Of a stretch of 38,988 nucleotides of DNA, positions 1,189-9,967 are shown piece after piece; the first letter of the stretch is position 1, and each line of letters opens with the position of its first letter. The stretch spans positions 1 to 38,988 of the forward strand of contig JADGRE010000026.1 of the NCBI GenBank assembly GCA_017881185.1, in the 5' to 3' direction. The position numbers were made by a program, and so were the translations under genes. The notes under the pieces were generated by a model. The model was not told the DNA's origin and searched no databases. It saw nothing but the letters and a program-made list of their open reading frames with translations. Source of the stretch: Pseudomonadota bacterium (GTDB taxonomy: Bacteria > Myxococcota_A > Polyangia > Polyangiales > JAFGIB01).

Positions 1189-1209
1189 GCCGCGTGTCAG
1201 AGACTCTCA
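1179..1209. terminator. Possible shared terminator hairpin between convergent genes
   Basis: TGAGAGT at 1179-1185 and ACTCTCA at 1203-1209 form a perfect 7-bp inverted repeat with a 17-base loop. It spans the stop codons of the two convergent genes. There is no T-run on either strand, so it would be at best a weak bidirectional terminator. Confidence 0.3.
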
Positions 1210-2517
1210 GTCGTCGCGTTCGTGACGCCACAGGTCTTCGATGCTCTGGCGCGCGCGAATCACTCGGAAGCCTGCGCCATCGGCCAGCACCTCGGCGGCG
1301 AACGGTCGGCTGTTGTAGTTGCTGCCCATGACCGCGCCGTAGGCTCCGGCGCCGCGAATTACGAGCAGGTCGCCGCGGGCGATGGGTGGCAGCGAGCGAT
1401 CTTGCGCGAAGAAGTCGCCGGACTCACACACCGGACCGACGACGTCGGCGGGAGATTCGGCCGCGCCTTTCGGATCGTTCACCGGTACCACGGCGTGATA
1501 GGCATGGTAGAGCGCCGGGCGGATGAGCTCGGTCATGGCGGCGTCGACGATCACGAAACGCTTGCCGCCTTGCTCCTTCACGTAGACCACGCGCGTCAGC
1601 AGCACACCCGCATCGCCCACGATCGAGCGCCCCGGCTCCACCACGAGCGTCAGGCCGAGGCGGTCGGCGCCGCCGCGCTGCATGCCGTCGATGATGGCTT
1701 GGCCGAACACGGAACGTGCCTGCGCGTCGCGCTCCTCGTTGCCGTAGAGGATGGGCCAGCCGCCGCCGGCGTCGAGGGTGCTGAGCTTGGCGCCGGCCGC
1801 CACGCACTCGCAGGCGAAGCGCGCGGTGATCGCCACGGCGTCGCCGATGGGCTCGGGCGAGAGCACCATGGAGCCGATGTGGCAGGCGACGCCTTCGAGC
1901 TGCAAATGCGGGCTCTTGATCAAGCGCGGAAGCAATTGTCGGGCGGTGTCGAGCTCCAGGCCGAACTTGGTCTTGTGCAAGCCGGTCGCGATGTACGGGT
2001 GGGTCGCTGCGTCGACGTCGGGGTTCACGCGCAGCGCGATCTTCGCGACCACGCCGCGCTGCTTCGCGATGGCTTCGATGGCGTCGATTTCAGGCGCGCT
2101 CTCCACGTGCAGGCTGCGGATGCCCGCCTGCAGCGCGGCGTCGATCTCCGGGTCGGTCTTGCCGACGCCGCTGAATACGATCTTCTCCGGAGCAAAGCCC
2201 GCACGCAGCGCACGCGCGAGCTCGCCACCCGACACGATGTCGGCGCCGGAGCCGAGGCGGCACAGCTGTGACAACAACGCCAGGTTGCCGTTGGCCTTGA
2301 CCGCGTACGCGATCATGTGCGGCACACTGCTGAGTGCGCTGTCAGTGCTGCGATACGAGTCGGTTACGGCTGCGCGGCTGTACACGTAGCTCGGTGTGCC
2401 CACGTGTGCGGCGATCTCGTCGAGCGGGACCGACTCGGCATGCAGCACGCCTGCGCGGTGGACGAAGTAGCTCGAGGTCGGGATGCGTTGATGCGCTGAC
2501 GCTGATGACACTGACAC
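1207..2517 (-). CDS. lysA: Diaminopimelate decarboxylase
   Basis: Converts meso-diaminopimelate to L-lysine plus CO2, the last step of lysine synthesis, using pyridoxal phosphate. The 436 residues match the family length. Visible motifs are Tyr-Ala-Val-Lys-Ala-Asn, with the PLP lysine near residue 74, then His-Ile-Gly-Ser, the Gly-Gly-Gly-Trp-Pro loop, Glu-Pro-Gly-Arg-Ser, Cys-Glu-Ser-Gly-Asp supplied across the dimer, and the C-terminal Tyr-Asn-Ser-Arg-Pro. The first possible start is a GTG that directly abuts the argH stop codon; a second in-frame GTG lies 6 bases further in. Stop-start contact implies translational coupling with argH. The coupling places arginine and lysine synthesis steps on one transcript. 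Confidence 0.96.
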   Translation of the reverse strand: MSVSSASAHQRIPTSSYFVHRAGVLHAESVPLDEIAAHVGTPSYVYSRAAVTDSYRSTDSALSSVPHMIAYAVKANGNLALLSQLCRLGSGADIVSGGELARALRAGFAPEKIVFSGVGKTDPEIDAALQAGIRSLHVESAPEIDAIEAIAKQRGVVAKIALRVNPDVDAATHPYIATGLHKTKFGLELDTARQLLPRLIKSPHLQLEGVACHIGSMVLSPEPIGDAVAITARFACECVAAGAKLSTLDAGGGWPILYGNEERDAQARSVFGQAIIDGMQRGGADRLGLTLVVEPGRSIVGDAGVLLTRVVYVKEQGGKRFVIVDAAMTELIRPALYHAYHAVVPVNDPKGAAESPADVVGPVCESGDFFAQDRSLPPIARGDLLVIRGAGAYGAVMGSNYNSRPFAAEVLADGAGFRVIRARQSIEDLWRHERDD

Positions 2518-3951
2518 TCAGGGCTCCGTGATCACGCCGAAGCGTGTGGCGATGGCTTGGCTGTCGACGCCGCGCGCCTGCAAGCGGTCGCGAAGCGCGC
2601 TGATCTCGGCGCTAACCATGCTGCGGGCAGGGCCACCCGGCAAGGCGCGTCGCTCGACGGCGACTTCCGGGTCGAGCGCGAGGTAGACGTCGGCTTCGAA
2701 CGCGGCGTGCTCGGCGCGTAGCTCTTGCAAGCTCAGCTGCGCAAGGGTCTTGCCGGCGTCGAACGCCGTCTTCACCAGACGTCCGGCCACGTGGTGCGCG
2801 CTGCGAAAGGGCACGCCCTTGGCGGCCAAGTAGTCGGCAAGCTCGGTCGCGTCGACGAAACCTTCGCCCAGCGCCCGACGCATGCGCGCGGCATCGAAGC
2901 GCGCGCTGGCGATGGACCCTGCGAGCACGGTCAGCGAAGCATCGACCGTGTCGAACGCGTCGAACACCGGCGGCTTGTCTTCTTGCATGTCGCGGTTGTA
3001 CGCGAGCGGCAGGCCCTTGAGCATGACCAGCAGGCTCACGAGATCGCCGACCACGCGCCCCGTCTTGCCGCGCACCAGCTCGGCCATGTCGGGGTTCTTC
3101 TTCTGCGGCATCATCGACGAGCCCGTGGTGAACGCGTCGCTCATCTGCACGAAGCCGAACTCTTGGCTGCTCCACAGCACGAGCTCTTCGGCGATGCGCG
3201 ACAGGTGCACCGCACAATTGGCCAGTGCCGCGACCGTCTCCACGAGAAAGTCGCGGTCGCCCACGGCGTCGAGCGAGTTGTGCGTGACGCCATCGAAGCC
3301 CAGTTCTTTCGCGCTCTGCGCGCGATCGAGCGGGAAGGTGGTTGCCGCGAGCGCGCCCGAGCCGAGCGGCGAGAGGTTCATGCGCCGGGCGGCATCCTGC
3401 AGACGGCCGCGGTCGCGCTCGAGCATCTCGCACCAGGCGAGCAAATGATGCGACAGGCGCACGGGCTGCGCGCGCTGCATGTGCGTGTAGCCTGGCATCA
3501 GCACCGAGAGGTGTTGTTGCGCGCGCACGCACAGCACGCTGAGCAGGGCATCGATACGCGCGCAGCTGGCGTAGCAGGCCTCGCGCGTCCACAGCCGCAT
3601 GTCGGTCGCGACCTGGTCATTGCGGCTGCGGCCAGTGTGTAGGCGCGCGCCGGCTTCGCCGATGCGCTTGGTGAGCGTGGCCTCGACGTTCATGTGCACG
3701 TCTTCGGCAGCCGGGTCCCAGACGAACTGACCGGACTCGATCTCGCTGGCGATGGCCGTCAGCCCGCTGACGATGCGCTCGACGTCTTGTGCGCTCAGCA
3801 CACCGCGCGCGCCCAGCATGCGGGCATGCGCGATTGAGCCGCGGATGTCCTGCGGCGCAAGGCGTTTGTCGACGTCGACGCTGGCGCTGAAGGCTGCTGC
3901 CTGCGCGTCCAGGTCCTGCTCGAAGCGTCCACCCCAGCTCTTCTCACTCAT
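2518..3951 (-). CDS. argH: Argininosuccinate lyase
   Basis: Cleaves argininosuccinate to arginine and fumarate, the last step of arginine synthesis. The 477 residues span the whole fumarase/aspartase-superfamily fold. The N-terminus Trp-Gly-Gly-Arg-Phe is typical, followed by the Ser-Arg-Asn-Asp-Gln substrate loop and the signature [11 protein letters not shown] around residue 280. The ATG start lies 12 bases after the stop of the P1B-ATPase-like gene and the stop abuts the lysA start. The three genes therefore look like one transcript running leftward. Nothing degenerate is seen. Confidence 0.97.
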
Positions 3952-3963
3952 GCGTATTCCACC

Positions 3964-6198
3964 TCAGGTCCACGCGGGAAGCCTTAGCGCGATTCGGTGC
4001 AGAAGTCGCGCGCCCGCGCGTACGGCATAGGCGTCGACGGCCACCGTGAGCACCGCTGCGATGCCTGGGTCGATCAGGCCTGCGGCTGCTGCCGCGACCA
4101 CGGCGGCGAAGGCCGCGGCGGCGAGGCCCGTGGCGTTGAGCGCACCTTCACGGGCTGCCTGCGCTATCCACAACGCTGCGGCGGCATCGCGAACGTCTTC
4201 GCTCACGAGCGCCACGGCCTTCTCGCCCGCGGGGCCGCCGGCGGCGCCGAGCGCGATGCCCACGTCTGCGGCCGATAGCGCGGCGTCGTCTTCGACGGGG
4301 TAGCCGATGACCGCCACGCGTCCGCCGGCTTCGCGCAGGCTGCGCACCTCGTGGCCCCGCTCCTCGGGCAGCAACTCGGCCTTCACGTGGGCGATGTCGA
4401 GCCCGGCGGCCAGCTCTTCGATCGGCCCGCGCTGATCGCCCGTCAGCAGCACAACCTCGAGGTCCATGTCGAACATGCGCTGGATCGCCGCGCGCGCGCC
4501 GACGCGCAGGTGGTCTTGCAGCGTGAGCACCGCGCGCACCTTGCCAGCGACGCTCACGAAGATCGCGGTGCGGCCTGCGGCTTCGGCGCGAGCAGCATCC
4601 GCGTCGGCGGTGGCGATGCTCACGCCGTGGTCGAGCTGCAAGCGCCGGCTGCCGATGACCACTTCTTCGCCGCCCGGAGCAATGGCCGTCACGCCGCGCC
4701 CAGGCACGCTCACGGCGCGGCGCACATCGATCGGCGGCACGCCCTTGAGCGCAGCGAAGCGCACGATGGCGCGCGCGATGGGATGCTCGCCGGCGGCTTG
4801 CTCGGCGGCTGCAACGACGGTGAGCAGCTCGCCGGTGTCGCCTTCACCCACCATGTGGACCTCGACGACCTCCGGCTTGCCTTCGGTCAACGTGCGGTGC
4901 GGCGACATCGCGACCAAGGTTGCATGGCCGGCGAGGTCGAGCGCTGCACCGCTCTGGAACACGATACCGCGCGCGCCCGCAGTCGCAGCGGCGGCCACGC
5001 TCGGCCATTCGACCGCACGGCGCAACGCGAGCAGCGGCGCGGCGATCAACACGGCGCAGGCGGCAGCGATTGGCCCGGACGCGCCGCGATGTCCAGCTAG
5101 CACGACCACTCCGAGCGCAAGTCCGAGTACGACGAGGCCACCCCAACGCTCGAGCTCCGCGCTCGCGCGCACCAGAGGCGCAGCATCGCGTTCGCTGGCG
5201 CGGCCGAAGCGCGCTACGCGTACCAGCGCACGGTCGTCGCCCACGCGGGTGGTCAGCACGCGCACGGCGCCCTCGACGACGGTTGCGCCTGCGAGGATGG
5301 GGTCGCCGATGTTGCGCCGGATGGTCGTGGTGGCGCCAGGATAGGGCAGCACGTCGGCCTCGCCGGCTTGCACCACACCGTCGACACCGATCACGTGGCC
5401 TTTCATGCCGATGACATCTTCGCCCGTGCGGATCTTGCTGGTCTCCACCCGTTCCACGGCCGTTGTCAGTGCGTCGCTGGCGTCGCGCGTGGGCACGTGT
5501 ACTTGGCGCGGCAGACGCGTCAGCAGTGCGGCCACCGCTTGCTCCACGGGCAAGCGCGCTTCGGCGTCGAAGTACGCGCGGCCCAGCATGGCGGCGGCCG
5601 CGAGTGCTGCGCCGAACAACGCGAACGAGCCAGCTTCGCCGTGCGCGACCGCCCAGCGACCGGACCACGCCGCCGCCGCCGCACCGAGTGGGCCCAACGC
5701 CCAGCCCAGACCGCCGACCACCTCGATGGTGTTTGCGCTCAAACGCAGCGCGCACAGCGCGGCGGCCGTGGTCATCAGCGCCGAGGCCAGCGTGATCTCG
5801 CGCGCCGTGAACAGCGACAGCAGCATCGCCAAGCCGACCGCGCTGCCACCTGTCCACAGCCAGCGCGCTTGCTCGGGGTTCAGTGCGTCTTCGGGCGCAG
5901 GTGCCGGCGGCGCGCTGAAGGGCAACTTCGTCTTCGCCACGCCACCCGGCGGCGTGCGTAGGCTGGTTGGCCGCCGTCGGCTGCGCACGCCCTGGCGGTA
6001 GCTCTGCTTGCACGCCTCACCGCACAAGAAGCGCACGCCGTCTTCGAACGCCAACACGCACGGCGCACGCAGTGGGTCGACGTCGGCGCCGCAGGCAGCG
6101 CACGGTTCGGCAGGCACGACTGGCCGGTCCGCCGGCAGCGTCGCCAGTGGAACCAGACGCCTAGCGGCGGAAGCGGCCGGAGTCTTTTCGGTCGACAC
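3964..6198 (-). CDS. P1B-type ATPase-like protein lacking catalytic motifs (probable pseudo-ATPase)
   Basis: The 744-residue protein follows the layout of a heavy-metal P-type ATPase: N-terminal metal-binding-like segment, membrane helices from about residue 112, actuator domain near 255-320, further helices near 350-395, a phosphorylation/nucleotide domain and C-terminal helices. Yet the key motifs are changed. The phosphorylated Asp of DKTGT is Ser432 (Ser-Pro-His-Arg-Thr-Leu-Thr), the membrane CPC is Ala-Pro-Leu at 387-389, TGE(S) is Pro-Gly-Ala-Thr at 287-290, and GDGxND is Gly-Tyr-Pro-Val-Glu-Asp at 632-637. The His-Pro at 472-473, Thr-Gly-Asp at 586-588 and overall fold remain. Cys33, 36, 47, 59 and 63 form a TRASH/YHS-like zinc site. 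The GTG start has an AAGGT ribosome site about 9 bases upstream. It cannot work as a normal pump; a metal-sensing, scaffold or structural role is conceivable. Confidence 0.85.
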   Translation of the reverse strand: MSTEKTPAASAARRLVPLATLPADRPVVPAEPCAACGADVDPLRAPCVLAFEDGVRFLCGEACKQSYRQGVRSRRRPTSLRTPPGGVAKTKLPFSAPPAPAPEDALNPEQARWLWTGGSAVGLAMLLSLFTAREITLASALMTTAAALCALRLSANTIEVVGGLGWALGPLGAAAAAWSGRWAVAHGEAGSFALFGAALAAAAMLGRAYFDAEARLPVEQAVAALLTRLPRQVHVPTRDASDALTTAVERVETSKIRTGEDVIGMKGHVIGVDGVVQAGEADVLPYPGATTTIRRNIGDPILAGATVVEGAVRVLTTRVGDDRALVRVARFGRASERDAAPLVRASAELERWGGLVVLGLALGVVVLAGHRGASGPIAAACAVLIAAPLLALRRAVEWPSVAAAATAGARGIVFQSGAALDLAGHATLVAMSPHRTLTEGKPEVVEVHMVGEGDTGELLTVVAAAEQAAGEHPIARAIVRFAALKGVPPIDVRRAVSVPGRGVTAIAPGGEEVVIGSRRLQLDHGVSIATADADAARAEAAGRTAIFVSVAGKVRAVLTLQDHLRVGARAAIQRMFDMDLEVVLLTGDQRGPIEELAAGLDIAHVKAELLPEERGHEVRSLREAGGRVAVIGYPVEDDAALSAADVGIALGAAGGPAGEKAVALVSEDVRDAAAALWIAQAAREGALNATGLAAAAFAAVVAAAAAGLIDPGIAAVLTVAVDAYAVRAGARLLHRIALRLPAWT

Positions 6199-8293: not shown

Positions 8294-9892
8294 TCAGGGC
8301 GTGATCACCACGAAGGTGCCCAGGTTGTCCTTGGTCGCGTTCACGCCATGGAAGCCTGAGGGCAGGTTGGGCGTGGTCCAGTCGAACAGCCAGTGTGCGT
8401 CGGCTGGGGCGAGGTTCACGCAGCCGTGGCTGCGCACGCGGCCGAAGCGCTGGTGCCAGAAGGCTGCATGCAGGGCTACGCCGCCCGAGAAGTACATCGT
8501 CCAGGGCACATCTTCGATGCTGTAGGCCTCGTCGGTGCCGGCTTCGCCATCCATGGTGGTGGAGACGTGCTTGCTCTGGATGCGGAAGATGCCCGTGGGG
8601 GTGGGGTGCTCTTCCTTGCCGGTCGAGACCAGCGTCGCGAACACGGGCGTCTTTCCATCGTAGGCGACCAGGGTCTGCGTCGAGAGCTGGATCGAGATCC
8701 AGCGCGCGCGCGGCGGTACGAAGGGCGGTCGGTCAGCGTGCTCGATCACGCGCAGCGCGTCTTCCGGCACCACACTGCCATCGCGCGCCACGCGGTAGCG
8801 CCGCGCGCCCTCGCTCACGACTTCGTCCGTCAGTGCGAAGGGCTGCATCAGCGCAAGCGAGCCTGCGGGCTCGAGCGCGCCGCTCATCGGATTGCGGTGC
8901 ATGCGCGTCAAGCCAGCGCGGTACACGAGCCCCAGCGGCAGCTGTGCACCGGCCGGGAGCTGTGTGCCGTGCAGGGCCGAGATGCTCACGGGTGTGAGAC
9001 CCTCCGCCCGCACATAGGCGCCACGCACGGTGCGCGCGAAGCTACGTCCTTCGCTTGCCTCTTGGCTGTCGACGCTCACGTAGAAGCCGGGGCGCATCAG
9101 CATGCGCACGTTCGCGGGCAGCGCTTCGGCTGCTTGCTCGCTCGCTTGCTTCGCAGCCTCGCTGCTCACCGCAGCGGGCTTGGCGACGGGGTGTTGCGCG
9201 GCGCTCGCTCGCAGCGCAGCTTGCGACGCCGTCTCTTCGCTGCGGCTTGGAAGCTGGTAGTACTGGGGTGCGTCGGCCTGCAACGTCTTGCTGTAGGCAT
9301 AGGGCAGATCGTCGTGGACCGTGGCGGGTGCCGCGGCGTCGGCGAACACTTGCGGCGTGCTGCCAAACATGAAGCCTCGGCCCGCGCACACGAAGCCGCC
9401 ACCCTCGATCTCGTGCCAATGCGTGTTGCAGCCTTTGCCGCGCACGCCCGCTTTCGCACGCAGCTGCCCGCCGCGGCGGAAGTAGCCGGTGACCTCGGCC
9501 TTGTCGGAGGGCTCGGCGAACACCTGCGCCTGCACGTGGAACGCCACGCCGTACAGCGGGAAGTCGCGCTCTCGGCTGCGCTCGGCGTCGAGGCGTGGGT
9601 CGTGGGGCAGGTCGTGAGATGCCTCGTGCGGCGTGGGCGCCGCGACCACCGGGGCCGCCGCCGCCGCCGCCGCTGCCGCTGCCGCTGCCGCGACCGGTCG
9701 CACCGGCTTGTCCGCGGCCAGTACGCGCTCGCCGCGCTGCGCTAGCCCGGCTGCGTTGGGCCCAGGCATGCGCGCCGACAGCGCCAAGGTCGCCGCTTGC
9801 GGCTGCATGCGCTCGGCCTCACCGCGCAGACCGCCACACGCGAGCACGAACATGAACGCGAGCACACACAGGTGGCGCAGGCTGCGGCCCAT
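8294..9892 (-). CDS. L,D-transpeptidase (YkuD domain) lipoprotein
   Basis: A secreted 532-residue protein. The start shows a lipoprotein signal with Val-Leu-Ala-Cys as lipobox (Cys19). A 13-Ala run follows in a low-complexity linker. The middle has an SH3-like segment near the word 'Lys-Gly-Cys-Asn-Thr-His-Trp'. The C-terminal YkuD domain starts at Trp-Ile-Ser-Ile-Gln-Leu and carries the catalytic pattern His-Ala-Ala-Phe-Trp-His ... Ser-His-Gly-Cys-Val-Asn-Leu with the nucleophile near Cys491. YkuD enzymes make 3-3 peptidoglycan cross-links or attach proteins to peptidoglycan. The ATG at 9892 is chosen because the signal peptide begins there; a GTG 15 bases upstream is possible. It leads the leftward run of genes. 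Confidence 0.9.
   Translation of the reverse strand: MGRSLRHLCVLAFMFVLACGGLRGEAERMQPQAATLALSARMPGPNAAGLAQRGERVLAADKPVRPVAAAAAAAAAAAAAPVVAAPTPHEASHDLPHDPRLDAERSRERDFPLYGVAFHVQAQVFAEPSDKAEVTGYFRRGGQLRAKAGVRGKGCNTHWHEIEGGGFVCAGRGFMFGSTPQVFADAAAPATVHDDLPYAYSKTLQADAPQYYQLPSRSEETASQAALRASAAQHPVAKPAAVSSEAAKQASEQAAEALPANVRMLMRPGFYVSVDSQEASEGRSFARTVRGAYVRAEGLTPVSISALHGTQLPAGAQLPLGLVYRAGLTRMHRNPMSGALEPAGSLALMQPFALTDEVVSEGARRYRVARDGSVVPEDALRVIEHADRPPFVPPRARWISIQLSTQTLVAYDGKTPVFATLVSTGKEEHPTPTGIFRIQSKHVSTTMDGEAGTDEAYSIEDVPWTMYFSGGVALHAAFWHQRFGRVRSHGCVNLAPADAHWLFDWTTPNLPSGFHGVNATKDNLGTFVVITP
9654..9692. repeat. GCC/GCT trinucleotide run coding for poly-alanine
   Basis: Thirteen consecutive GCC or GCT-type triplets on the plus strand are read as an alanine run in the linker of the L,D-transpeptidase lipoprotein. 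Such runs change length easily by slippage without shifting the frame. Interpretation as a flexible or helical spacer between membrane anchor and folded domains is inference. Confidence 0.75.
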
Positions 9893-9967
9893 GCCTGTGC
9901 TGTGCACGCCTGCGCCGCTGGCGTCCAGAAATCGGCAGAGACCGCGCCGGCTACGCGGCGGCCCGCG

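Follow-up and report, generated by a model that had tools for sequence, protein, structure and literature searches.

Gene order and family assignment

The window (the whole stretch of DNA analysed, 38,988 nucleotides) carries on its minus strand a gene for a P1B-ATPase-like protein, here called the pseudo-pump, directly followed by argH and lysA. An earlier reading made from the letters alone (the sequence-only reading) had placed the gene in a run with these two and had described its frame as intact; both points stand, the frame opening with GTG and running for 744 codons with no internal stop, and the stop codon lying 12 bp before the argH start. GC content by codon position is of the coding type. 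The genes and the main domains of the protein are:

3964..6198, minus strand: pseudo-P1B-ATPase gene, 744 aa (family models, AlphaFold model, orthologs)
2518..3951, minus strand: argH, argininosuccinate lyase, 12 bp downstream of the pseudo-pump, a conserved neighbour (Pfam Lyase_1 and ASL_C2; TIGR00838, 609 bits)
1207..2517, minus strand: lysA, diaminopimelate decarboxylase, a conserved neighbour (Pfam Orn_Arg_deC_N and Orn_DAP_Arg_deC)
5518..5877, minus strand: helices MA, MB, M1 and M2 (residues 108-227), poorly conserved (AlphaFold secondary structure)
5209..5517, minus strand: A domain (residues 228-330; Pfam E1-E2_ATPase and model)
4519..4863, minus strand: N domain (residues 446-560; model), conserved more than in normal pumps
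3982..4194, minus strand: helices M5 and M6 and the C-terminal helix (residues 669-739; AlphaFold model)

The nearest solved relative by sequence is the A. fulgidus CopA (1e-43), and Pfam recognizes E1-E2_ATPase (5.9e-12) and HAD Hydrolase (3.7e-10) domains. TIGR01525, the model for heavy metal translocating P-type ATPases, matches at E = 2.1e-68 with 231.6 bits, below its curated cut-off of 346.25. In an AlphaFold model (40 sequences; mean pLDDT 89.8, pTM 0.82) the elements follow the P1B order of finger, MA-MB, M1-M2, A domain, M3-M4, P-N-P and M5-M6, so that the A, P and N domains and eight helices are all in place, and the top Foldseek match of the model is the CopA structure 7r0g (E 6.6e-35). 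The P1B fold is thus predicted to be intact, as the sequence-only reading had supposed; it had also pointed to His-Pro 472-473 and TLTEGKP, both of which are retained. By its sequence the protein is a descendant of the P1B-ATPases, and filing it as a working member is unwarranted, since it lacks the features that define one. Elsewhere in the source genome are P1B genes whose CPC and DKTGT motifs are normal (L001, L006).

Motif loss and selection across a clade

The family as compared here comprises 57 non-redundant members, namely the source gene and relatives at about 29-75% identity from one order. The positions at which the catalytic motifs are replaced are:

4885..4905, minus strand: SPHRTLT (432-438) in place of DKTGTLT, with Ser432 at the phosphorylated Asp; Asp in 0/57 members
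5029..5040, minus strand: APLL (387-390) in place of CPC (alignments); CPC in no member
5329..5340, minus strand: PGAT (287-290) in place of TGE, in a loop shorter by two residues (alignments)
4288..4305, minus strand: GYPVED (632-637) in place of the GDGxND hinge loop; the first Asp in none of the members, the second in 52/57

The alignments bear out the sequence-only assignments of Ser432 (codon 4903-4905), PGAT and GYPVED. That of CPC to APL (387-389) holds for the absence of both cysteines, and its exact counterpart depends on the alignment, being APL if the prolines are matched and PLL (388-390) if no gap is introduced. DKT, CPC and GDGxND are found in none of the 57 members, source gene included; the Glu position of TGE holds Ala, Ser or Gly in every member with a residue there, and the phosphorylation site, which holds Cys, Leu, Ser, Ala, Val, Pro or Gln, offers no acceptor shared by the members. 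Missing throughout the clade are the motifs of phosphorylation, of dephosphorylation, of the Mg loop and of the membrane metal site. P-type pumping by its known chemistry requires the Asp. Because all 57 lack the Asp, the motif loss in the source protein goes beyond chance. Close homologues whose DKTGT and CPC motifs are normal would, according to the sequence-only reading, mean decay of this copy, and they were looked for: every clade homologue carries the losses, and a member with intact motifs was found neither among the 57 nor in L120, a strongly diverged protein from another order of the same class that keeps the finger and lacks the motifs.

A gene of this type occurs in at least 46 of the 57 genomes searched (the source genome and 56 relatives), though one of these has no more than a C-terminal fragment. 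The named relatives are metagenome-assembled genomes labelled Sandaracinaceae, Myxococcales, Polyangia or Deltaproteobacteria. A quick-method tree with 33 members and 19 normal P1B pumps, in which L120, L097, L080 and L094 have long branches, places the members on a single branch apart from the normal pumps (SH-aLRT 100). The best family-profile matches inspected outside the order are ordinary pumps with DKTGT and CPC, save for one exception at the first Cys. The simplest reading is a single loss event early in the Polyangia. A DNA-level search for the finger pattern in 284 genomes of the phylum, too strict for counting the family, found it in nine, eight of them inside the order; the ninth (L093) holds no relative of the pseudo-pump. 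Among the matches listed in a plasmid search there were only ordinary P-type ATPases of low identity.

Estimates of dN/dS by NG86 for close pairs are approximately 0.06 (L020/L022), 0.13 (L071/L072), 0.16 (L075/L076 and L062/L069) and 0.22 (L053/L061), reaching approximately 0.3 in a few more distant pairs; YN00 values, for the pairs with such an estimate, are similar or lower. Ratios well below 1 argue against decay, in agreement with the sequence-only reading, and a decaying single copy is ruled out by orthologs that share the losses together with these ratios. The catalytic losses are common to orthologs under purifying selection, the pattern of a pseudoenzyme. It is well supported by these comparisons that the gene is kept by purifying selection in an order of Polyangia and, equally, that the clade is both transport-dead and conserved.

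Conserved finger and nucleotide pocket

Conservation has shifted to two cytosolic features:

6010..6102, minus strand: N-terminal finger C33-x2-C36 ... C59-x3-C63, with VDPLRA after the first pair; four Cys in 54/54 members, the number that reach that far N-terminally
4645..4803, minus strand: nucleotide-pocket residues E466, H472-P473, G500-x-G502 and G516-x-R518 (member alignment)

Both Gly of the pocket GxG and the Gly and Arg of GxR are invariant (57/57), E466 is found in 49/57, H472 in 44/57 and P473 in 53/57, and the Asn of the G-N-R motif in only 20/57; we count the N-domain pocket (E, HP, GxG, G-N-R) as retained. The finger matches the Pfam family DUF7576 weakly in 21 of 40 members (best E 1.1e-4), zf-FCS weakly in one and TRASH_HVO_1752_C weakly in two. 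It resembles the TRASH/YHS-type fingers in being a short N-terminal Cys finger (CxxCG..VDP...FCSxxC) at a place where many P1B pumps have a YHS domain, but its four Cys do not follow the YHS pattern and its zf-FCS and TRASH matches are confined to one or two members. No member matched the YHS profile, and its identification as a YHS domain is unsupported.

The membrane region has gone the other way. M4, the CPC-bearing helix, is where normal pumps are most conserved, and it has drifted in the pseudo-pump members (entropy 1.12 bits in 19 normal pumps versus 2.08), and the other membrane helices are likewise looser, whereas the N domain (1.87 in normal pumps, 1.67 in members) and the finger (2.22 and 1.75) are tighter; since the two sets differ in divergence, rank within each set weighs more than the absolute values. 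Among the members, helices MA-M4 and M6 contain no column conserved at 90% or above, and the membrane part no conserved metal ligand. With its helices drifted and its metal ligands gone, the membrane part looks like an anchor, and constraint appears to act on the cytosolic pocket and finger. Since the membrane metal site has been lost, the Cys4 finger would be needed for any metal sensing. The Cys4 finger, the retained pocket and a second arginine setting, described below, go beyond the sequence-only reading.

Arginine genes and possible function

In 30 fetched loci argH lies 3' of the pseudo-pump on the same strand, at a spacing that ranges from an 8-bp overlap to 336 bp and is most commonly 10-25 bp, and lysA is usually the next gene after argH in these loci; this is the arrangement of the majority of members. 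The adjacency persists down to approximately 30% identity (L097, L077, L078). The remaining flanks vary, with YhbY and HpaB genes at the source locus and a fumarase-like lyase and ComEC in L070. In a second sub-clade (f12) the pseudo-pump stands directly behind argD or argD-argF in nine loci (L081, L082, L083, L085, L087, L089, L091, L094, L095); the argD-argF form is found in L083, L087 and L089, with Aminotran_3 and OTCace identified by Pfam in L089. The argH of the f12 genomes examined lies elsewhere, without a pseudo-pump (L151-L154). An argB-argD-argF-dnaJ-dnaK run on another contig of the source genome (L133:1903-8549) likewise has none. The pseudo-pump therefore keeps the company of arginine genes in two settings. 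A third sub-clade (f6-type: L071-L076, L084, L086, L088, L090) has no arginine neighbour, nor do L080 and some Sandaracinaceae (L044, L052, L067). All-against-all clustering of neighbours was dominated by shadow frames and served as a lead only.

Several other arrangements were seen. In L058 (3801-8581) argH-lysA is inverted relative to the pseudo-pump, the sole such case; the f6-type gene of L088 (4348-7390) adjoins a ribosome recycling factor gene; and the diverged member L120 (4690-8300) has a TrkH potassium-transport gene as its neighbour, with overlap between the two open frames. A YkuD L,D-transpeptidase gene (8294-9907 at the source locus) is a frequent second neighbour and is oppositely oriented in some relatives (L047, L067, L080). 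Downstream of lysA are two genes on the other strand (90-1188), of which the first matches SCP-2 (sterol transfer); close relatives (L039, L040, L079) also carry this pair next to argH-lysA.

ArgD works in both the arginine and the lysine pathways in some bacteria. Such a dual-pathway enzyme would fit both settings, which we offer as a lead only. One ancestral arginine cluster, later split, would also explain the neighbourhoods without any present function.

Three other accounts of the gene were weighed. That it is a metal-pump gene in decay, as the loss of all main catalytic motifs might suggest, we regard as next to impossible given its open frame, coding-type GC by codon position, dN/dS of approximately 0.06-0.3 and the recurrence of these losses in 57 members whose assemblies are independent. 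It is improbable that the protein works as a transporter or enzyme by some unusual chemistry, being phosphorylated on a different residue or transporting passively through its membrane part: the fold and nucleotide pocket are retained, and the atypical pump ERMA functions without GDGVND and TGES, but the Asp is still essential in ERMA (PMC13322241), and the 57 members share no acceptor at the phosphorylation site and have neither a column conserved at 90% or above in MA-M4 and M6 nor a conserved metal ligand there.

It is a serious possibility, though on balance we doubt it, that the protein is a conserved pseudo-pump unrelated to arginine, serving for example in zinc or redox sensing through its finger, or in regulating a normal P1B pump as its partner, with the arginine genes as old neighbours kept by chance and shared transcription. 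The invariant Cys4 finger, the co-occurrence of normal P1B pumps in the source genome and the members without arginine neighbours (L071-L076, L084, L086, L088, L090, L080) all favour such a role. Against it, same-strand adjacency to argH or argD/argF recurs in approximately 39 loci at 30-75% identity while other flanks vary, and the arginine genes concerned belong to two different runs.

The reading we prefer, while evenly divided as to its truth, is that of a transport-dead zinc-finger protein, anchored in the membrane and binding nucleotide, which acts as a sensor or scaffold in connection with arginine (and lysine) synthesis, its new job being probably a regulatory one; a non-transport job, with metal sensing, assembly or scaffolding as alternatives, had been put forward by the sequence-only reading and fits the conservation pattern. 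What we infer in this reading is the binding of nucleotide and the role in arginine synthesis. The membrane part would act only as an anchor, the cytosolic part would bind ATP or a related nucleotide without turnover, and the finger would bind zinc. Binding could shift the relative placement of the A, N and P domains, a rearrangement that a partner protein may read. Since the gene occurs within arginine-biosynthesis runs in two distinct settings, the likeliest partner or target would be an arginine (and lysine) biosynthetic enzyme or a regulator of that synthesis, on which the protein would act through sensing or membrane scaffolding. H472 is replaced in 13/57 members and E466 in eight, so nucleotide binding may not be universal, and conservation of the pocket can serve folding alone.

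The members are like the P1B heavy-metal ATPases (CopA, ZntA; TIGR01525) in fold, domain order, helix pattern, the N-domain HP, GxG and GxR and the order of the HAD segments, but differ from them in lacking the DKTGT Asp, CPC, TGE and GDGxND, in their drifted membrane region and in scoring below the TIGR01525 cut-off. A 2023 review of the P-type ATPase superfamily gives the phosphorylated aspartate as its signature motif (PMC10654040). Degenerate P-type domains that keep the fold while their motifs are degraded occur in alveolate guanylate cyclases (PMC6592433); those are P4-type, eukaryotic and fused to a cyclase, whereas the pseudo-pump is P1B-type, bacterial and free of any enzyme fusion. 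The atypical Mg2+ P-type ATPase ERMA/TMEM94 also has GDGVND replaced and TGES absent, but retains the Asp that is essential for its transport (PMC13322241) and that the pseudo-pump lacks. The open-access literature searched yielded nothing relevant on inactive or pseudo P-type ATPases in bacteria or on a link with argH, and no report of a bacterial stand-alone family of degenerate P-type ATPases.

For members of this clade the label "heavy metal translocating P-type ATPase" would mislead. The clade offers a natural test of the role of the N domain without P-site chemistry, and an old bacterial clade maintained by selection without the Asp would demonstrate that a pump scaffold can persist in a non-pumping role. 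More tentatively, the pump fold may have been recast, across an order of Polyangia, as a membrane-bound sensor of nucleotide or zinc, a dedicated regulator that governs or organises the synthesis of arginine and lysine.
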